From assembly GCA_025357635.1 (NCBI GenBank), contig JANXOV010000033.1, positions 1 through 51,337 of the forward strand: 51,337 nt of DNA, in the 5' to 3' direction. Made by a program: the position numbers and the translations under genes. Source of the DNA: Pseudomonadota bacterium (lineage in GTDB: Bacteria; Pseudomonadota; Gammaproteobacteria; Steroidobacterales; Steroidobacteraceae). This document shows, one piece after another, positions 14,894 through 47,730 of the stretch. Under the pieces are notes generated by a model. It was not told the origin of the DNA. It saw only the letters and a list, made by a program, of their open reading frames with translations, and did not search any database. How positions within the stretch are numbered: the stretch's first letter is position 1; every line of letters starts with the position of its first letter.

Positions 14894-15604
14894 TTATCGG
14901 GAATTTATTTCCACCAATTGCTGCGAGCGCGCGATTCCTTCCACGATTCTTCCGGATGAGTTGTTCCGGACCTTGACCCGCTGATTGATCATGCCGTCGC
15001 TCAGCGCGCGCCCCGTCATGCGCACGTTCAATCCATCCAGGCTCGCCAGCAGCGTGACTTCCTGGCCGCGCACGATGGTGTCGGCGGCCATGAGCAGCTG
15101 GTTCGACAGCACCACCCCTGCGGCTGCGGCGCGCCGCACGGTCATGCCCGTGACGGCGGCAGGATCATCGAAGTAGCCGAGCGGAAACTGCGCCGCATCG
15201 CCTTCGATGCTCGCAAGGTCCTGTGTTTTGAGGGTCTGGCCGGCGACCACGGGCCGAGCCAGCACGACCGCCGTGCGTGTTCCGACGATGCGCGCCGGCA
15301 CGAAGATTCGCCAGGTGGGCAACGAGTCGCAGCGGATCTGCACCAGCGTGCGGTCTCGCATCACGGTGCCCGGACCAATGCTGGTCCGCAGCGCCTCGGC
15401 GCATTGTGGCAGATGCAGCCGCGCATCCACGGGGCCCACCTGCAGCCGCTGCTGGGCGCCCAACGCCGGCAGTTGTTTCTGCGCTTCCGTGCGTGCTGCG
15501 TTCTCGATCTCAGCCAGGGGCTGCAGGCCCTGTGCGGCGGCTACCCCTGCCAGGAAGATCAGAGCGGCCGGTAAGCGGCGGAATTTTGACACTGGGCTGC
15601 ACAT
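14894..15604 (-). CDS. flgA: flagellar basal body P-ring formation chaperone FlgA
   Basis: About 236 residues from ATG 15604. The N-terminus is a signal peptide (KFRRLPAALIFLAGVAAAQG), so the protein is periplasmic, where FlgA assists FlgI polymerisation into the P-ring. The C-terminal SAF-like domain starts near residue 110 (VLARPVVAGQTLKTQDLASIEG) and ends with the family motif GQEVTLLASLDGLNVRMTGRAL...INQRVKVRNNSSGRIVEG. The frame is open far upstream, but that part is not FlgA-like. The sigma-54 promoter at 15617-15632 would start RNA near 15606, two nt before the ATG. A GTG at 15592 is the main alternative start. Divergent from flgB. Confidence 0.9.
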   Translation of the reverse strand: MCSPVSKFRRLPAALIFLAGVAAAQGLQPLAEIENAARTEAQKQLPALGAQQRLQVGPVDARLHLPQCAEALRTSIGPGTVMRDRTLVQIRCDSLPTWRIFVPARIVGTRTAVVLARPVVAGQTLKTQDLASIEGDAAQFPLGYFDDPAAVTGMTVRRAAAAGVVLSNQLLMAADTIVRGQEVTLLASLDGLNVRMTGRALSDGMINQRVKVRNNSSGRIVEGIARSQQLVEINSR

Positions 15605-15616
15605 CCCTCTCACTGA

Positions 15617-15632
15617 AGCAACTCGCGTGCCA
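15617..15632 (-). promoter_or_regulatory. sigma-54 promoter of flgA
   Basis: The minus strand reads TGGCACGCGAGTTGCT, matching the TGGCACG-N4-TTGCW consensus. Counting from the -12 C places the transcript start near 15606, essentially at the flgA start codon. Its sequence is nearly the same as the divergent flgB promoter. Confidence 0.85.
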
Positions 15633-15801: not shown

Positions 15802-15817
15802 TGGCACGCAAGTTGCT
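15802..15817 (+). promoter_or_regulatory. sigma-54 promoter of the flgB operon
   Basis: TGGCACGCAAGTTGCT fits the sigma-54 -24/-12 consensus exactly. The predicted start, near 15828, leaves a 39-nt leader with AAGGAAG 9 nt before the flgB GTG. It should drive flgBCDEFGHIJ and possibly flgKL, activated by a FleQ- or FleR-type protein. Confidence 0.9.
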
Positions 15818-15866: not shown

Positions 15867-16253
15867 GTGTTCAACAACATCTTCGGCATCCATGAGCAGG
15901 CCTTGCTGCTGCGCGGGCAGCGGGTCGGCGTGCTGGCCGCGAATCTCGCCAATGCCGATACGCCCAATTACAAGTCGCGCGATTTCGACTTCGATGCGGC
16001 GCTGGCCGGCACGGATGGGGCACCGCTGCCCTTGAATCTCACCCAGCCGGCGCATTTGACGCTGACCGAGCCCGGCGCGCTGGGCGTGGACCTGAAGTAC
16101 CGCAATCCCTACCAGGCCTCCCTGGACGGCAATACCGTGGAAGCACCGGTGGAGCAGGCGGCATTCGCGGAGAACTCGGTGCGCTACCAGGCGAGCCTTG
16201 CATTCATCAACCAAACCATCGCCAGCTTGCAGCTGGCCATCACCGGGCAATAA
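15867..16253 (+). CDS. flgB: flagellar proximal rod protein FlgB
   Basis: 128 residues from a GTG start with AAGGAAG upstream. FlgB forms part of the proximal rod that joins the MS-ring to the distal rod across the periplasm. The N-terminal rod motif VLAANLANADTPNYKSRDFD (residues about 22-41) and the C-terminal helix ENSVRYQASLAFINQTI (about 100-117), which together form the D0 coiled coil, are intact. Length is normal (115-140). It is the first gene of the rod/hook operon, 2 nt before flgC, behind a sigma-54 promoter. Confidence 0.95.
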   Translation: MFNNIFGIHEQALLLRGQRVGVLAANLANADTPNYKSRDFDFDAALAGTDGAPLPLNLTQPAHLTLTEPGALGVDLKYRNPYQASLDGNTVEAPVEQAAFAENSVRYQASLAFINQTIASLQLAITGQ

Positions 16254-30227: not shown

Positions 30228-30243
30228 TGGTACGAGAATTGCT
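30228..30243 (+). promoter_or_regulatory. sigma-54 promoter of fliD operon
   Basis: TGGTACGAGAATTGCT matches TGGCACG-N4-TTGCW with one change. Predicted start near 30254 gives a 47-nt leader to fliD, with AAGGAAA in it. Likely drives fliD-fliS-fliT and the PilZ-like gene. Confidence 0.85.
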
Positions 30244-30300: not shown

Positions 30301-31695
30301 ATGGCTTCGACCATCCAGTCCAGCGGCGTCGGCTCAGGCCTCGACATTGCGAGTATCGTTGCGCAGCTCACGACGGCGCAGGGCAATGCGCAGACCAAAC
30401 AGCTCACCGCCAGAAAGACCGACCTGGACGCGCAGGTATCGGCCTACGGCACGTTCCGTGCTGCGCTCGAGGCGTTGCAGGCGACTCTGCCTGCGTTGAA
30501 GGACGCCAATAAATTTCAGGGCCGCAGCGCCGCTGTGGCCGACATCGCCATCGCCAGCGCCAGCGCGGAGGCGACGGCGACGCCGGCGCAGTACACGCTC
30601 GAAGTGCAGACGCTGGCCAAGGCCGCCAGTCTCGTGTCTGCACCCATCCTTACCGGCACAGTGGGCACGGGCACGCTGAGCATCTTGGTGGGCGGCGTGA
30701 CGGCGCAGATCACCATCGATGGCACCAACAACACGCTGGCCGGGATCGCAGCGGCCATCAATTCCGCCGTGGGCAACCCCGGTGTCAGCGCCTCGGTGAT
30801 CAACACCGCGGGCGGCGCGAGGCTGGTGCTCAGCGGCACCAAGACCGGCGCCATCAACGGCATCACGGTCACGCAGAGCGGCGGCGACGGCGGATTGGCG
30901 CCTCTGGTGTATGACCCGGCCAACGGCAATACGCAGCTGACCCAGTCGCAGGCTCCGCAGGATGCGCAGTTCACCATCAACGGGTTCGCCGCCACCAGCG
31001 CCAGCAATGCGGTCACCGGTGTCATCACCGGCGTGACCATCAATCTGCTGAAGCCGACCGCCTTGAACACGCCGACCACGCTTTCCGTCGGTTACGATCA
31101 GGAAGGCGCGACCTCGGCGATCAAGAATTTCGTCACGGCCTACAATGCGCTGATCACCAGCGTCAAAGCCCTGAGCAGCTACGACGTCGCCACCAAGACC
31201 GGCGGCACACTGCTCGGCAACACCACCGTCACCTCGCTGCTCGGCAAGCTGCGCCAATTGCTGTCGCAGACCATTACCAGCAGCGCCGGCGGCGTGCAGT
31301 CGCTGACCGATCTGGGCGTCACCTCCAATCTGCAGGGCACGTTGGATCAGAGCGAGAGCAAGGTAACGGCGGCGTTGACCGGGAATCTGAATTCCGTGAC
31401 CAGCCTGTTGGGCGGCAAGAACGGCCTGGCCGCGCAGTTGGACACGGTGCTGACCCAATACACGCAGCCCGGCGGCTTGCTGGACACGATCAGCAAAGGC
31501 TTGCGCAGCGGACTTGCGGATGTGTCAGTCAAGCAGCGGGCGCTGGAGCTGCGCCTGGCCACCTACTCGGCGACGCTGACCAAGCAGTTCAACGCGATGG
31601 ACGCGGCCGTGGCCGCTTTGAAGCAGACGCAGAATTTTCTTAATCAGGCCTTCAATAGCATCAACGGGACGAAGAATTCTTCGTCCTCCGGTTAG
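30301..31695 (+). CDS. fliD: flagellar filament cap protein FliD
   Basis: 464 residues. FliD (HAP2) forms the cap under which flagellin folds. The N-terminus SSGVGSGLDIASIVAQLTTAQ, the early coiled coil, the repeated beta domains (residues about 90-270, including an ITIDGTNNTLAGIAAAINSA FliD motif) and the C-terminal coiled coil (about 395-450) ending NAMDAAVAALKQTQNFLNQAF are all present. It lies ahead of fliS and fliT, 17 nt before fliS. Confidence 0.96.
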   Translation: MASTIQSSGVGSGLDIASIVAQLTTAQGNAQTKQLTARKTDLDAQVSAYGTFRAALEALQATLPALKDANKFQGRSAAVADIAIASASAEATATPAQYTLEVQTLAKAASLVSAPILTGTVGTGTLSILVGGVTAQITIDGTNNTLAGIAAAINSAVGNPGVSASVINTAGGARLVLSGTKTGAINGITVTQSGGDGGLAPLVYDPANGNTQLTQSQAPQDAQFTINGFAATSASNAVTGVITGVTINLLKPTALNTPTTLSVGYDQEGATSAIKNFVTAYNALITSVKALSSYDVATKTGGTLLGNTTVTSLLGKLRQLLSQTITSSAGGVQSLTDLGVTSNLQGTLDQSESKVTAALTGNLNSVTSLLGGKNGLAAQLDTVLTQYTQPGGLLDTISKGLRSGLADVSVKQRALELRLATYSATLTKQFNAMDAAVAALKQTQNFLNQAFNSINGTKNSSSSG

Positions 31696-33198: not shown

Positions 33199-33245
33199 AT
33201 CAAGCCGCGTCTGAAGTGCAGGAATGGGAAGGAGACCTAATCACT

Positions 33246-34316
33246 GTGGCGGAAACCGGCGTTCTGCTGATCGATGATTTGAATAGACCCTCGCGACCCC
33301 GCGAGGCGCAGTTCCGGCCCAGCGGGCAATCGCGCCCCATGCGCGAAATTCAACGCCTGATCGAACAAGTGGCTCCATCGGACAGCAATGTGCTGATCCT
33401 TGGGGAATCCGGAACGGGAAAGGAGCTGGTGGCGCGCCATATCCACGAAATATCGGGCCGTTCGGCGCATCCTTTCGTACCGGTGAATTGCGGCGCCATT
33501 CCCGCCGAACTGCTCGAGAGCGAATTGTTCGGGCACGAAAAAGGCGCTTTTACCGGCGCATTGTCCACGCGTTTGGGACGCTTCGAGTTCGCCGAAGGCG
33601 GCACCTTGTTCCTGGATGAGATCGGCGACATGTCCCTGCAGATGCAGGTCAAGCTCCTGCGCGTGCTGCAGGAACGCAGTTTCGAGCGGGTCGGCAGCAA
33701 TCGCACCATCAAATGCAATGTGCGCATCGTTGCGGCCACGCATCGCAATCTCGAGTCGGCCCTCATCGAGGGCAAGTTCCGCGAGGATTTGTTCTATCGG
33801 TTGAATGTGTTTCCCCTCCAGATCCCGCCGTTGCGGGACCGCCTGGAGGATGTGCCGTCGCTGATCGAGCATCTGCTGGAGCGGCAGGTGCGCCGCGGCG
33901 GCCGGCGGATCCACGTGACGAAAGAGGCGATGAACTGTCTGATGCGATGCCGCTGGCCCGGCAATGTCCGGGAACTGGGGAATCTGCTGGAGCGGCTCGG
34001 AATCCTGTATCCCGAACAGGGCGTCGACGCCGCCGATTTGCCGGAACGCTACCGCATCGTCGACTCTTCGGAGTGGTTCGGCAGCGGCATGCACATCGAA
34101 ACCCTGCCTTGCGCGCCCGAGGTTGCGACCCAGCTGACCGATCCGCTGCCAAGCGGCGGTCTGGATCTGAAGGATCATCTGTGCTCGATCGAACTGGGCC
34201 TGATCCGCAAGGCGATGCAGGAGGCCGATGGCACGGTGGCCGAGGCCGCCCGGCTGCTACGGATGCGCCGCACCACGCTGGTGGAAAAGCTGCGCAAGTA
34301 CCGGCTGCACGCCTAG
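33246..34316 (+). CDS. fleQ: FleQ/FlrA-family sigma-54 activator lacking the receiver-like domain
   Basis: 356 residues from GTG 33246, with AAGGAGA at 10 nt (a GTG at 33216 would add 10 residues). FleQ-type activators start the flagellar cascade with sigma-54. The AAA+ domain is complete: Walker A GESGTGK (53-59), GAFTGA (about 100-105), Walker B LFLDEIGD, and sensor regions. A Fis-type helix-turn-helix ends the protein ([24 protein letters not shown]). The N-terminus keeps ETGVLLIDD, like the first strand of FleQ, and then jumps to [14 protein letters not shown], which resembles the FleQ LFRS c-di-GMP motif just before the AAA+ domain. About 110 residues of receiver-like domain are absent. 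Upstream DNA does not encode them in another frame. Confidence 0.85.
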
Positions 34317-34402: not shown

Positions 34403-34418
34403 AGGCATGAAAGTTGCT
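34403..34418 (+). promoter_or_regulatory. sigma-54 promoter of fleS-fleR operon
   Basis: AGGCATGAAAGTTGCT fits the sigma-54 consensus with GG/GC at the right spacing. Counting from the -12 C gives a start near 34429, four nt before the fleS ATG. Confidence 0.7.
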
Positions 34419-34432
34419 CGGTCGGTAGTTCG

Positions 34433-35563
34433 ATGAACGCCGTCACTGAAGTCAATCACTCTGCGCAGGCTGAACTGCAAAGGGCCTTTGCCGCGTTTGG
34501 CTCCGCGTCCTCCAAACTCACCGGCGCATTCGAATCGCTCGAATCGCGCGTCGTGCGCCTTACTGCTGACCTGGCCGAGTCGCGCGCCGGCCAGGAGCGC
34601 ATGAGCTTGCGTCTTGCCGCCGTCATCGACGGATTGCCGGGCGCGGTGTTGGTGTTGGATACGGGCGGATGCGTCATGGAACTCAACTCCATCGCGCGCG
34701 AATTGCTGGGCGCGCCGTTGCCCGGTGAGCGATTCGAGACGCTGCTCGCCAAGAATCTCCTCGACCCCGCGTTGATGATCGGCGACATCGAACTGCGCAG
34801 CGGGCGCTTCGTCACGCTGTCGCGCCGCACGCTGGAGGGCGGCGAGATCGTTCTGTTGACGGACGTGACCGAAGCGCACCTCATGCAATCCTTTCTTGCG
34901 CGTCAGCAGCGGCTGCCGACACTGGGCGAGCTGGCGGCGGGGTTGGCGCATCAGATCCGCACGCCGCTGGCTGCCGCTCTTCTGTATGTCACGCAGATGA
35001 CCCTGCCGGGGAAAGATGCGCCGGATTTGATTCGATGCGCTGCCAAGACCGCCGAGCGGCTGCGCGAACTGGACACGCTGATCACCGACATGCTGGCCTT
35101 CGCGCGCGGCACCGCCAGTATGGAGCCGGTCAGTGTCAATGCGTTGCTCGAGCAGGCGGCACAGTGGCTGCGTCCGGCGCTGGGGCAGGGCGTCACCCTG
35201 ACCATCCGAACGGAGGCGCCGGATCTGACGGTGCGTGTCAACGCGCCCGCACTGGTTTCGGCCATCCTGAATCTGGCGACCAACGCGATGCAGGCGGCGA
35301 GCGCGGACCTGGCCATCGAACTGCTGTCGCGGCGCGCCGCTTCCGGCCAGGCGGAGATCGTGGTTTCCGACGACGGGCCCGGGATTGCCGAAAGCCTGCA
35401 GGGGCGCGTGTTCGAGCCGTTTTTCACGACGCGCGCGCGCGGCACCGGTCTGGGCCTGGCCATCGTGAAATCCATCGTCGAGGCGCATCACGGCGGCATC
35501 CGGCTTGAAAATACGCGTCAGCGAGGCGCGCGTTTCGTTATCGAACTGCCCGCGGAGTCTTGA
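34433..35563 (+). CDS. fleS: sensor histidine kinase FleS/FlrB
   Basis: 376 residues, soluble (no membrane helix). A short N-terminal coiled coil (about 10-55), a PAS-like sensor (about 60-150: AAVIDGLPGAVLVLDTGG), a HisKA region with phospho-acceptor His173 (GLAHQIRTPL), and an HATPase domain with N box (NLATNAMQAA), G1 (DDGPGI) and G2 (GTGLGLAI) motifs. In polar flagellates it phosphorylates FleR/FlrC to turn on basal-body and hook genes. No Shine-Dalgarno precedes the ATG, and no other plausible start exists in the first 45 codons. The next gene, fleR, begins one base after the stop. Confidence 0.92.
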   Translation: MNAVTEVNHSAQAELQRAFAAFGSASSKLTGAFESLESRVVRLTADLAESRAGQERMSLRLAAVIDGLPGAVLVLDTGGCVMELNSIARELLGAPLPGERFETLLAKNLLDPALMIGDIELRSGRFVTLSRRTLEGGEIVLLTDVTEAHLMQSFLARQQRLPTLGELAAGLAHQIRTPLAAALLYVTQMTLPGKDAPDLIRCAAKTAERLRELDTLITDMLAFARGTASMEPVSVNALLEQAAQWLRPALGQGVTLTIRTEAPDLTVRVNAPALVSAILNLATNAMQAASADLAIELLSRRAASGQAEIVVSDDGPGIAESLQGRVFEPFFTTRARGTGLGLAIVKSIVEAHHGGIRLENTRQRGARFVIELPAES

Positions 35564-35564
35564 G

Positions 35565-36911
35565 ATGAGCGAACAGAAAGTGTTGATCGTCGAGGATGAT
35601 GCCGCGCTGCGCGATGCCCTGCTGGACACTCTGTCGGCTGCCGGCATCGCGGCGGACGCGGTGGGCGATGCCGGCGGCGCCTTGCTGCGGCTTGAGCAGG
35701 AACGATTCGGGCTGGTGATCAGCGATGTCCATATGCCGAAGGTCGACGGCGTGGAGCTGCTGATCGCCATCAAGCGCCGCTGGAGCGAGGTACCGGTGGT
35801 GTTGATGACCGCCTACGCGACGGTTTCCAAAGCCGTCGCGGCGATGCGCGAGGGCGCGATCGACTACATCGTCAAGCCCTTCGACGCGGCTCAGCTGATC
35901 GATCTGGCGCGCCGGCAACTGGCCAGCCGTGCGGTGCCGGAAGAATTGATCGCGGAGGATCCGGAATCGCGGCGCGTTCTGGCGCTGGCGACGCGCATCG
36001 CGCAAAGCGACGCCACCGTTCTGCTCACCGGTGCCAGCGGCACCGGCAAGGAAGTCTACGCGCGCTACATCCGCGCCCGCTCGGCGCGCGCGCAAGCGCC
36101 CTTCGTCGCCATCAATTGCGCGGCCATTCCGGACAACCTGCTCGAGGCGACGCTGTTCGGCCATGAGCGCGGTGCGTTCACCGGCGCGCTGAGTACCCAT
36201 GCCGGCAAGTTTGAGCAGGCCCAGGGCGGCACCTTGCTGCTGGATGAAATTTCAGAAATGGATATGGGGCTGCAGGCGAAGATCCTGCGCGTATTGCAGG
36301 AGCGCGAAGTGGAGCGCGTGGGCAGCAGCCGCACCATCGCACTGGATGTCCGCGTCATTGCGACCTCGAACCGGGATCTTGCCGGGGAAGTGAAACTGGG
36401 ACGCTTCCGCGGCGATCTGTACTACCGGTTGAATGTCATGTCGCTGCAGCTGCCCGATCTGGCGCAGCGGCGCGGGGATATCTTGCCGCTGACCCGCCGC
36501 GCGCTGCATGCGTGCGGCCGGGGCGAAGCGCAGTTCAGCGCATCCGCTCAAGCGGCCCTGCTGGCGCATTCCTGGCCCGGCAATGTCCGTGAACTGACCA
36601 ATGCCGTGCAGCGTGCTGCCTTGCTGTGCAACGGCGAGGTCATCGATGCGCAGACACTCGGGCTGGGGGAGTCGCCGCAGGCGCCTGCGCCGGTCATGAC
36701 CGATCGAACCGATGCGGGACTGGATCATGACTTGAAGGAGCGCGAGCGCGAGCTGATCCTGCACACGCTGCGGCAGACCGCGGGCAGCCGCAAACTGGCG
36801 GCCGAACGGCTCGGCATCAGCGCGCGCACGCTGCGCCACAAACTGCAGCAGTTTAAGGCGGCCGGCCTGGCCGTGCCGCGCGCCCGCGAAATCACATTGA
36901 TCGAGGCCTGA
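35565..36911 (+). CDS. fleR: sigma-54-dependent response regulator FleR/FlrC
   Basis: 448 residues from ATG 35565. A receiver domain with phospho-acceptor Asp54 (LVISDVHMPKVDG) and conserved Lys (VKPFDAAQL); an AAA+ domain with Walker A TGASGTGKE, GAFTGA at about 203-208, and LLLDEISEM; and a C-terminal Fis helix-turn-helix (SRKLAAERLGISARTLRHKLQQF). Partner of FleS. It should activate the second tier of sigma-54 flagellar operons. fliE follows after 3 nt, and no new promoter is visible, so fliEFGHIJ may be read with fleSR. Confidence 0.95.
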   Translation: MSEQKVLIVEDDAALRDALLDTLSAAGIAADAVGDAGGALLRLEQERFGLVISDVHMPKVDGVELLIAIKRRWSEVPVVLMTAYATVSKAVAAMREGAIDYIVKPFDAAQLIDLARRQLASRAVPEELIAEDPESRRVLALATRIAQSDATVLLTGASGTGKEVYARYIRARSARAQAPFVAINCAAIPDNLLEATLFGHERGAFTGALSTHAGKFEQAQGGTLLLDEISEMDMGLQAKILRVLQEREVERVGSSRTIALDVRVIATSNRDLAGEVKLGRFRGDLYYRLNVMSLQLPDLAQRRGDILPLTRRALHACGRGEAQFSASAQAALLAHSWPGNVRELTNAVQRAALLCNGEVIDAQTLGLGESPQAPAPVMTDRTDAGLDHDLKERERELILHTLRQTAGSRKLAAERLGISARTLRHKLQQFKAAGLAVPRAREITLIEA

Positions 36912-41915: not shown

Positions 41916-42365
41916 ATGATGAAATCAAAGCGCTTCGAATCCATCCGCGAAATCGCCCGCAACTCGGCGGACGCATTGAGCCGCGGCGTCGCCGATGCCG
42001 AGCGGCATCTGGCCGAAGTTGAACGGCAGCTGGCGAAGCTGCAAAAGTACCGGACAGATTATCTTGGCCAGTCTGAAAGCAAGACCGATGGCATGGATAC
42101 GGTCAGGCTGCAGAACCTGCGCTCCTTTCTGGATCGGCTCGCCGAGGCCATCCGCGTGCAGTCCGAGGCGCTCGCCGCCGCGCGCTGCGACTATGAAGCC
42201 AAGCGCCTGCTGTGGTCGCAGAAGCGGGTTGAGGCGGAAGCGCTCGGCAAGGTGGTGGAGCGGTTCAAGCTCGACGAGCGCCGCGTGCAGGACAAGCAAG
42301 ATCAGAGCGAGACTGACGATTCGAGCATGCGGCGGCTCGCCACGGAGCAATTCGAGGTTCGCTGA
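41916..42365 (+). CDS. fliJ: flagellar export protein FliJ
   Basis: 149 residues forming one long antiparallel coiled coil, rich in Arg/Glu/Leu (VADAERHLAEVERQLAKLQ; AARCDYEAKRLLWSQKRVEA). FliJ is the ATPase central stalk and an escort for chaperones. Low sequence conservation is normal for it; position between fliI and fliK secures the call. Confidence 0.88.
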   Translation: MMKSKRFESIREIARNSADALSRGVADAERHLAEVERQLAKLQKYRTDYLGQSESKTDGMDTVRLQNLRSFLDRLAEAIRVQSEALAAARCDYEAKRLLWSQKRVEAEALGKVVERFKLDERRVQDKQDQSETDDSSMRRLATEQFEVR

Positions 42366-42392: not shown

Positions 42393-42408
42393 TGGCACGG
42401 CCGTTGCA
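42393..42408 (+). promoter_or_regulatory. sigma-54 promoter of fliK
   Basis: TGGCACGGCCGTTGCA is a perfect match to TGGCACG-N4-TTGCA. The predicted start (near 42419) is three nt before the fliK ATG at 42422. Confidence 0.88.
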
Positions 42409-42421
42409 GCATCTACGGCCT

Positions 42422-43927
42422 ATGGCCACTTCACCCATCGTATTGCAATCCGCTGCGCCTTCGGCAGCGACTCCTTCCCCGATCCGCGATGCCGGCGCTC
42501 CGGCCTCCAACAAGTCTGCCGCCGGCGAGCAGGCAGGCGCGAAACCGCATGGTTTTGCAGGCGCAATGAAGGATGCGCAGAGCCACGAAAGACAATCGTC
42601 CCGGACGCAGTCGCGTGAGCGCGAACCTTCCGCCAGCGAAGGCACTGCGCCAAAGCCCAGAGTCAAAGCCGAGCGCAAGCCCGCCGCCGGACCTGACGCT
42701 GCGCAGGACAACCCCGGTACGAACCCGCCGCCCGACGGCAAGGGATTGCCGCCCCTGGCCGCGATAGCGGCGGTGATTCCGGCGCTGCCAGCGAGTGCGG
42801 CGCGGCCTGAAGAATCCGTGCCCGCAGCGGTGGGCGCCCTCGCGACCAGCGTCACGTCGGCGGCGCCGCCGGTACCTCCCGGCCCGGTGCAGAAGAATGC
42901 GGATGCGGCGCCCTCCGAATCCCCGACGGCCGCCGATGACGCGCCCGCCGCGCCGTCGGCGGACTTTGCGTTGACCGCCGACGCTGCGCCCGCTGCGCCG
43001 GCAACGGCGCCTGAACGGCCGATGCCCGCGGAGGTTTCCGCTCGCGCCCGTCAGCCGCTGGCCCAGGCACCGACGGATGCCCGGCTGATCCCTCAGGCGC
43101 CAACGCCGACGCTGATACCCGCCGCGGCGGCGTCCGCGACCGATCCTCTTCCCACAACGCCGGCCCCGGCGGTGATGAGTGCGCCGCCGGCAGCCGATCC
43201 GGCCGCCGCGGACAAGTACAAAATGAACGCCCCGCCGGCAGCGAACCCCCCGACTGGAGGATCGGCAGACGGTCCGTCGGCGCAGGTTGCGGCCCAGGCC
43301 GCCGCGCAGGCATTGACCAGCGGTGCGGTCCGGCCCTCGGGCGCGATCATCTCGGCGAGCGATCGGGACGCGTCTGCGCGCAGCACGGATCTGGTGCGCA
43401 CACCGAGCGCGCCGGGCGCCGATGGCGTTTCCATTGCCGCTGCGACGAACAGCGTGCTGGCTCCCAGCACGGCCGCCGCGTCCGGCGCCGCCGGTCCCGC
43501 GGTGTTCAAGCTGCATCAAGGATTGGATACGCCGGAGTTTTCCCAGGCGCTGGCCGACAAGGTTGCGTGGTTGGTCGACAAGGACATCGGCTCCGCCAAA
43601 CTGCAGATCAACCCGCCGCAGCTGGGTCCGATCGATGTTCACATTGAAGTGCAGGGCGACAAGGCGCAGGTGTGGCTGAGCGCGCACAGCGTTGTGACCC
43701 GGGATGCGCTGGAGGCGGCCGCACCCCGGTTGCGCGACATGCTCGGTTCGCAGGGCTTTGCGCAGGTGAGCGTGGACGTGTCGCAGCGATCGTTTCAGGA
43801 CCGTACCGCTCCGCCGCCGGTTCCGTGGCTGCCCGCCGCGTCGAACGGCAGCCCGGAAGCGTTGTTTTCCGCTGACACCGTGCAGCCAAAGCGCGTGTCA
43901 ATGGGCGCTCTCGACGCATACGCCTGA
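42422..43927 (+). CDS. fliK: flagellar hook-length control protein FliK
   Basis: 501 residues from ATG 42422. The frame opens ten codons earlier at a TTG, but that codon lies inside the promoter. FliK is a secreted ruler that stops hook growth near its set length. Residues 1-370 are Ala/Pro-rich and unstructured. The conserved Flg_hook domain covers about 375-465 (SQALADKVAWLVDKDIGSAKLQINPPQLGPIDVHIEVQGDKAQVWL split by one loop; ends LGSQGFAQVSVDVS). No Shine-Dalgarno precedes the ATG. Separated from fliJ by 56 bp. Confidence 0.92.
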   Translation: MATSPIVLQSAAPSAATPSPIRDAGAPASNKSAAGEQAGAKPHGFAGAMKDAQSHERQSSRTQSREREPSASEGTAPKPRVKAERKPAAGPDAAQDNPGTNPPPDGKGLPPLAAIAAVIPALPASAARPEESVPAAVGALATSVTSAAPPVPPGPVQKNADAAPSESPTAADDAPAAPSADFALTADAAPAAPATAPERPMPAEVSARARQPLAQAPTDARLIPQAPTPTLIPAAAASATDPLPTTPAPAVMSAPPAADPAAADKYKMNAPPAANPPTGGSADGPSAQVAAQAAAQALTSGAVRPSGAIISASDRDASARSTDLVRTPSAPGADGVSIAAATNSVLAPSTAAASGAAGPAVFKLHQGLDTPEFSQALADKVAWLVDKDIGSAKLQINPPQLGPIDVHIEVQGDKAQVWLSAHSVVTRDALEAAAPRLRDMLGSQGFAQVSVDVSQRSFQDRTAPPPVPWLPAASNGSPEALFSADTVQPKRVSMGALDAYA

Positions 43928-47181: not shown

Positions 47182-47730
47182 ATGGCAGAAGAAGCCGAAG
47201 CGGAACCCGTACCCGCAGCCAAGGCGCCGGGCATCCTTCCCAAGCTGATCAATGCGATCGGCGTTTTCGTGTTGTGTCTGGGCGCCGTGGTGGCCGGAGG
47301 CTTCATCAACGCAAAGCTCCATCCGCCGCCGGAGATGAAGCTCGCGCCTGACGGCAAGATCACTGTCGTCGTACCGGTGGAGGCCAAGCACGTCGATCAT
47401 GACGAGCCCGGAAAGGCGGCGATCTACTTCGCCATCGATCCGCCGCTGGTCGTGAACTTCGAGGACTCCGCCGCCGTGCGCTTCCTGCAGATCACCGTCG
47501 AGCTCATGGCGCGCGATCAGAAGGCCATCGACGGCGTGCAGAAGAACGTGCCGCTGATCCGCAACAATCTGCTGCTGCTGATCAGCAACCGCGACTACAA
47601 ATCGTTGATGTCGCGCGAAGGCAAGGAGAAGCTTCGTCAGGAGGCGCTCACCGAAGTGCGCAACATCTCCAAGAAAGAAGGCGCGCCGCCGGTCGATGAT
47701 CTGCTGTTCACCAGTTTCGTGGTGCAGTGA
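47182..47730 (+). CDS. fliL: flagellar basal body-associated protein FliL
   Basis: 182 residues. FliL surrounds or supports the stator. The single membrane helix (INAIGVFVLCLGAVVAGGFI, about 27-46) follows an acidic N-tail. The periplasmic stomatin-like domain contains YFAIDPPLVVNFEDSAAVRFLQITVELMARD split around residue 90, and the end motif LRQEALTEVRNISKK is canonical. First gene behind a sigma-54 promoter; its stop overlaps the fliM start. Confidence 0.94.
   Translation: MAEEAEAEPVPAAKAPGILPKLINAIGVFVLCLGAVVAGGFINAKLHPPPEMKLAPDGKITVVVPVEAKHVDHDEPGKAAIYFAIDPPLVVNFEDSAAVRFLQITVELMARDQKAIDGVQKNVPLIRNNLLLLISNRDYKSLMSREGKEKLRQEALTEVRNISKKEGAPPVDDLLFTSFVVQ

Follow-up and report, generated by a model that had tools for sequence, protein, structure and literature searches.

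Leaderless mRNA is described as a message whose 5' end lies 0–6 nt before the start codon, and lambda cI, tetR of Tn1721 and acuR are among the examples cited in the available part of the source (PMC3293720). Leaderless genes of Campylobacter are reported, in the sections consulted, with sigma-70 boxes and with little conservation between species, and the sigma-54 motif of Campylobacter is placed 8–13 nt before the transcription start site (TSS) (PMC3847290). Leaderless starts of Sinorhizobium are AUG (PMC3616915), no specific promoters are described for leaderless genes in the excerpts of PMC4842269, and among the leaderless genes of Salmonella are regulators and membrane proteins for which a low level is expected (group of PMC3293720, PMC3847290 and PMC3616915, in their available parts). 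In the text covered, published leaderless genes are mostly listed singly, and they are seldom conserved in Campylobacter and Helicobacter.

Promoters of sigma-54 follow the consensus TGGCACG-N4-TTGCW as quoted in PMC6424431, the excerpts of which place the site of P. putida PflhA at -71 to -57 relative to the flhA start codon. RpoN flagellar promoters belong to the Pseudomonas FleQ/FleSR hierarchy, according to the consulted part of a review (PMC3930126). Long-leader sigma-54 mRNAs of E. coli carry leaders of 360–760 nt, and leader length is proposed, in the portion available, to matter for translation (PMC4591121).

Flagellar sigma-54 promoters of the window

The window, i.e., the whole analysed stretch of 51,337 nucleotides (contig JANXOV010000033.1, family Steroidobacteraceae), contains the following genes and promoters, with the predicted leader lengths.

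14894 to 15604, minus strand: flgA, P-ring chaperone (ChapFlgA), N-terminus signal-peptide-like
15617 to 15632, minus strand: sigma-54 promoter of flgA, TGGCACGCGAGTTGCT, leader 2 nt
15802 to 15817, plus strand: sigma-54 promoter of flgB, divergent from flgA, leader 39 nt, internal contrast
15867 to 16253, plus strand: flgB, GTG start
30228 to 30243, plus strand: sigma-54 promoter of fliD, ATG at 30301, leader 47 nt, contrast
33216 to 34316 and 35505 to 36911: two sigma-54 activators (Pfam)
34403 to 34418, plus strand: sigma-54 promoter of fleS, AGGCATGAAAGTTGCT, one mismatch to the pattern, leader 4 nt
34433 to 35563, plus strand: fleS-like histidine kinase (HisKA and HATPase_c), named from domains and gene order
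41916 to 42365, plus strand: fliJ (PF02050), 5' neighbour of fliK
42393 to 42408, plus strand: sigma-54 promoter of fliK, TGGCACGGCCGTTGCA, -12 C at 42407
42422 to 43927, plus strand: fliK, hook-length control (PF02120), ATG start, 501 aa
47123 to 47138, plus strand: sigma-54 promoter of fliL, ATG at 47182, leader 33 nt, contrast

FliK, FlgA, FliJ, FliD, FliL, the histidine kinase and the two sigma-54 activators are assigned by Pfam; the names FleS, FleR and FleQ were given by domains and gene order. In the FleQ-like activator at 33216–34316, the sigma-54 AAA domain begins almost at once, and Pfam reports no preceding N-terminal domain. The gene rpoN was found in the genome of the window (PF04552, E 2.1e-65, G000:C145), and the promoters of the window fit the sigma-54 GG/GC pattern at -24/-12, close to TGGCACG-N4-TTGCW.

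Transcription start points of sigma-54 promoters vary by a few nt. The +1 position was placed here by rule, twelve bases past the -12 C, and all leader lengths are predictions. The predicted +1 of fliK, 42419, leaves a leader of 3 nt before the ATG at 42422, and 56 nt separate the stop of fliJ from this ATG. The sequence and coordinates of the site, start point and ATG in the initial annotation were thereby borne out, as was the similar geometry proposed for flgA and fleS; the leaders claimed as 33–47 nt for flgB, fliD and fliL are 39, 47 and 33 nt by count. The division of sigma-54 flagellar starts into a leadered and a near-leaderless class is supported, and fliK, fleS and flgA of the window fall into the latter. 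All three genes begin with ATG, as do the 48 listed near-leaderless relatives, which were picked on ATG.

The absence of a Shine-Dalgarno (SD) sequence, also claimed for fliK, holds for that gene and not clearly for fleS and flgA: anti-SD pairing, computed over the 20 nt preceding the start, is -1.7 kcal/mol for fliK, -4.6 for fleS and -6.3 for flgA, and -5.6, -5.9 and -6.2 kcal/mol for the leadered flgB, fliD and fliL. The string GAGAGGG abuts the AUG of flgA and lies mostly 5' of +1.

With a probability of roughly three in four, fliK and flgA, joined in certain genera by fleS, form a conserved near-leaderless sigma-54 class, whose messages would be read as leaderless mRNA from a 5'-terminal AUG.

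Leaders of flgA and flgB in related genomes

A FlgA match was found in 97 of 150 genomes of the family, and 96 loci were looked at, of which 89 were callable. Among the dropped loci, L274, L277 and L306 have a site and no in-frame ATG, while L300, L315, L335 and L336 have no site in the stretch, are cut short or are masked. The first in-frame ATG was taken as the flgA start and GTG was ignored; by this rule L299 and L308 count as 116 and 80 nt, although a GTG is present 23 nt from +1. Leaders of 0–6 nt are predicted for 58 of the 89 loci, leaders of 7–15 nt for 8 and leaders of at least 16 nt for 23, these 31 all being 8 nt or longer, and at least one member with a leader of 0–6 nt is present in 20 of 22 genera of the family. 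Conservation of the promoter–ATG distance, proposed by the initial annotation as its own check, is thus seen in many relatives.

The strongest single result is the frame control: from +1 to +7, 60 ATGs lie in the flgA frame versus 2 and 1 in the other frames, and the 7 nt before +1 contain 2, 3 and 2 ATGs by frame. The FlgA sequences are widely diverged, yet the promoter–ATG spacing is constant within a few nt. The tree of 30 FlgA, built by a quick method, requires at least two changes of leader state. Spread of this geometry over the whole class was rejected, because near-leaderless flgA was found in only 5 of 49 class-level loci outside the family of the window; these loci were drawn from 93 other genomes with a match, and 32 of the 49 have a site-like match (L212 and L219 were misplaced, and L209, the signal peptide of which seems to start further downstream, was dropped).

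The divergent sigma-54 promoter of flgB is present in 29 of the first 30 flgA loci. When the conserved N-terminus of FlgB is used to fix the starts, flgB is leadered (14–44 nt) in 28 of the 29 loci with a site, and its anti-SD pairing reaches -5 kcal/mol or lower in 21 of these 28 starts but not in 7. In L172 (G011), flgB is near-leaderless, with the ATG 4 nt past the predicted +1 and without SD pairing; in L162, flgB is also short, 6 nt, under the first-ATG rule.

FleQ-like matches of at least 9 of 12 positions were found in 14 of 89 flgA stretches from +1 to +75 versus 0.9 expected from single-base shuffles. In some genera a FleQ-like box overlaps the flgA start codon or directly follows it: the palindromes fall in the first flgA codons or over the start codon in L302, L314 and L318 (+8 to +21), and at +5 to +18 in L288, L289, L298, L305 and L312. 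The matches are limited to some genera, and a downstream FleQ site was rejected as the general cause of the lost leader. A recurring string similar to GCGYCAAAATNNCGTCGC occupies flgA codons 5–12 in L160–L171, L275, L276, L283, L297, L301 and L313, and a resembling string is located in the untranslated leaders of L281, L293 and L310; it may be a protein motif or a DNA element.

fliK, fleS and fliO in related genomes

The FliK search covered 98 genomes and gave 34 matches in the family of the window, for all of which the upstream region was inspected. An own sigma-54 site at fliK was found in nine of the 34 genomes. Six of these are near-leaderless (G000, 3 nt; G001, 2; G013, 2; G020, 2; G024, 3; G032, 2), two are leadered, namely, G039 (L364) with 32 nt and G012 (L366) with 31 nt, and the start of one, G019 (L369), is uncalled. 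No sigma-54 site was found at fliK in the other 25 of the 34 family genomes, some starts being hidden where the contig ends or the match frame is broken. Four near-leaderless loci were added from a contig search, L056 (2 nt), L058, L059 and L060 (1 nt each), their placement in the family resting on FliI identity of 79–86% versus 75% for G020; L061 is the contig of G020 and was counted once. The family total, the window included, is accordingly 13 fliK genes with an own site: 10 near-leaderless (1–3 nt), 2 leadered (31–32 nt) and 1 uncalled. A near-leaderless state of every family fliK that has its own site was rejected on account of the two leadered and one uncalled gene among the 14 remaining family genomes.

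Elsewhere, all 34 called fliK leaders are at least 21 nt long. They comprise seven of seven order-level genes with a site (25–61 nt) and 27 of 27 called genes in further loci of unassigned lineage (21–55 nt). These 27 came from 68 loci with FliI, two of which also appear in the contig search; in L063 a site is present and the start is uncalled, and the rest are siteless in 1100 nt or too short. PF02120 was matched by 28 of 30 proteins from the 27 further loci and L056, L059 and L060. Of the 14 nearest FliI loci, eight show no site after fliI; where inspected, fliJ is followed by other frames or by the end of the contig. In the close relatives L052, L053, L054, L055, L057 and L122, the frames after fliJ do not resemble fliK, which may be relocated or lost.

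A close FleS was found in 21 of 150 family genomes. Eleven of these fleS loci are near-leaderless (1–4 nt), eight are leadered (23–54 nt) and two are uncalled; the tree of 19 FleS requires at least three changes of leader state. The gene fliO (PF04347) in L241:1501-2044 (G009) is also near-leaderless, with the site TGGCACGGCGGTTGCT and an ATG at a leader of 2 nt.

The initial annotation had proposed the three genes as a tier of flagellar control. A fixed tier of three was not upheld, because the state of each gene switches between genera (flgA, 58 of 89; fleS, 11 near-leaderless versus 8 leadered; fliK, 10 versus 2), and fliO in L241 has the same geometry. The geometry is mostly kept but it switches; the two leadered fliK and the fliO make the class more changeable, and its existence is unaltered.

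Chance occurrence of the promoter and start codon

In the 4.29 Mb genome, TGGCAC-N5-TTGC has 20 matches versus 12 for the reversed control, and presence of the site alone was therefore rejected as proof; the weight rests on context and relatives, since genome-wide the site by itself carries little. Across 60 genomes of the family, the strict core TGGCACG-N4-TTGCW is followed by an ATG at a leader of 0–5 nt in 33 cases versus 7 at six pre-+1 offsets, whereas the loose core gives only a small excess in the same comparison, 68 versus 50. Chance placement was rejected by the strict-core offset control together with the flgA frame control; the counts are not independent, because the rows have common ancestry.

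Fifteen of the 33 strict-core matches were assigned to flgA or fliK and 18 were not. Among 30 inspected loci, five are flgA or fliK, and the other 25 comprise 14 frames shorter than 100 codons and 11 longer ones. Nine longer frames were scanned; only FliO of L241 proved flagellar, the remainder being unrelated or without a name, and a wider regulon was rejected. In L246 and L248, two group g2 genomes, the same unnamed gene (MKAISPPELEDSLL...) begins 3 nt past the predicted +1 of a strict site.

Ribosome-binding sites and 5' ends

Mean anti-SD pairing is -2.36 kcal/mol in 48 near-leaderless genes versus -4.80 kcal/mol in 42 leadered ones (p 1.8e-6), the leadered rows being a selection from which, for example, L068, L094, L114 and L156 are left out. 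For all called flgA, the means are -1.92 kcal/mol in the 58 near-leaderless, -4.54 in the 8 short and -4.12 in the 23 leadered genes. Pairing of -5 kcal/mol is nevertheless reached by nine of the 48 class members, and pairing at this value or lower is present in 11 of the 58 near-leaderless flgA, including that of the window. The ten near-leaderless fliK have a mean of -2.55 kcal/mol; eight siteless fliK starts of the family have a mean of -6.6 kcal/mol, five of them being at -5 or lower, and a ninth, L010, is cut by a contig edge and stands outside this mean.

The commonest base at +1 of the 42 leadered promoters is C (20), and the commonest at +2 is A (18); in the 48 near-leaderless genes, the base preceding ATG is C in 34 and A in none. 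Since this composition fits a C-A initiator, the A of AUG is possibly the A of the initiator, and some of the messages might have no leader at all. Little RNA structure is predicted at the 5' end in 47 genes, but leadered fleS starts are similar, and it was rejected as a distinguishing mark.

In L250–L269 and the window (451 kb), TANNNT lies 12–13 nt before candidate ATGs 13 times in 447 starts versus about 2 per position elsewhere, and SD tetramers show a clear peak between -13 and -9. A genome-wide leaderless habit was rejected as the whole explanation, because the TANNNT signal is small and the SD peak clear; some sigma-70 leaderless genes may be present here too.

Proposed mechanism and alternative explanations

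The sigma-54 RNA polymerase, activated by a regulator of the FleQ or FleR type, would start transcription about 0–6 nt before the AUG; therefore, no room would be left for a Shine-Dalgarno sequence, and the message would be read from its 5'-terminal AUG as leaderless mRNA. On a read-through message of fliEFGHIJ, the ribosome site of fliK would be poor; FliK would then come mainly from the message of its own promoter, i.e., its expression would be gated by the 5' end. Directly seen in the sequence are the spacing and its conservation, the start codons, the weaker pairing with the anti-SD and the leader that flgB has in the shared intergenic region; from these we infer the position of +1, the activator, translation without a leader and a low protein yield. 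A low dose would suit a ruler, a chaperone and a kinase.

It is very improbable that the called ATGs are too far upstream and that the real starts, located downstream, have ordinary short leaders. Another ATG, GTG or TTG lies in frame within 24 codons in 34 of the 48 genes (5 of 10 fliK, 7 of 11 fleS and 22 of 27 flgA), and a few residues of near-leaderless FliK could be surplus, the F..L motif being located at about residue 28–52 (near residue 45 in the window) versus 34–37 in many leadered FliK; its distance from the start is similar in the two groups, if somewhat more variable. However, in 14 of the 48 genes the 24 codons that follow hold no alternative start, the signal peptide of some FlgA starts right at the near-leaderless ATG (L172, MKKFLAVLAS; L188, MFRRGVPALF), and the ATGs near +1 favour the flgA frame by 60:2:1. 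Only slightly more credible is a minor role of the near-leaderless message, with fliK expressed mainly from fliEFGHIJ read-through, flgA and fleS from unseen upstream promoters, and the sigma-54 site being only additive. The proximity of the fliJ end (56 nt), some SD pairing ahead of flgA and fleS in the window and the many family fliK without a found site agree with this; yet anti-SD pairing is weak in the near-leaderless class taken together, the eight siteless fliK pair better, and the conserved spacing is left unexplained.

The most serious alternative, to which somewhat less than even odds are given, is ordinary compaction: the spacing would be a tolerated relic, with leaderless initiation adequate and devoid of regulatory meaning. 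The few changes of state on the FleS and FlgA trees, the switches between genera in all three genes and the possible sigma-70 leaderless genes with their small TANNNT peak are consistent with it. On the other hand, the spacing varies by only a few nt among widely diverged FlgA, intergenic room is available at flgA, and the adjoining flgB keeps its leader. As an extension of the near-leaderless class proposed here, selection might fuse the sigma-54 initiator and the start codon, so that the proteins are made almost only from RNA of this promoter, read-through fliK is nearly silent and the activator gates translation as well as transcription; the resulting translational tier, differently manned in each genus, would hold the hook ruler, the P-ring chaperone and the class III kinase at a low dose. 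This extension is tentative and, taken as a whole, rather doubtful. The geometry is real and conserved, and the regulatory tier is hypothetical.

Comparison with known systems

Leaderless mRNAs and sigma-54 flagellar promoters are each known, and their conserved fusion is likely a new variant of both. No description of a conserved leaderless and sigma-54 flagellar fusion was found among the listed matches in the open-licence literature, in the parts available (published TSS tables may hold a mapped case), nor was the class described in the consulted portions of PMC5026340, PMC4287350, PMC5243855, PMC7563307, PMC11704786 and PMC3815106. Here, one promoter class and one organelle repeat the fusion over many genera, and natural controls are provided by leadered relatives and by the leadered neighbour in the shared intergenic region. 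If the 5' ends are as predicted, the flagellar hierarchy would gain a second control point, and leaderless translation would gain a comparative system with one gene in both states.

As far as the available parts of the sources allow comparison, the genes studied here resemble bacterial leaderless mRNAs in the predicted leader of 0–6 nt, in the AUG and, for fliK and the class mean, in weak SD pairing. Leaderless genes of Campylobacter have sigma-70 promoters and are hardly conserved, whereas here the promoters are of the sigma-54 type and the spacing is kept across genera. The consensus is common with the promoters of the Pseudomonas FleQ/FleSR hierarchy, and FleQ-, FleS- and FleR-like genes are present in the window. 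Unlike PflhA of P. putida, which leaves a leader, the site here abuts the AUG. Relative to the E. coli sigma-54 mRNAs with leaders of 360–760 nt, the predicted leaders of 0–6 nt represent the opposite extreme.
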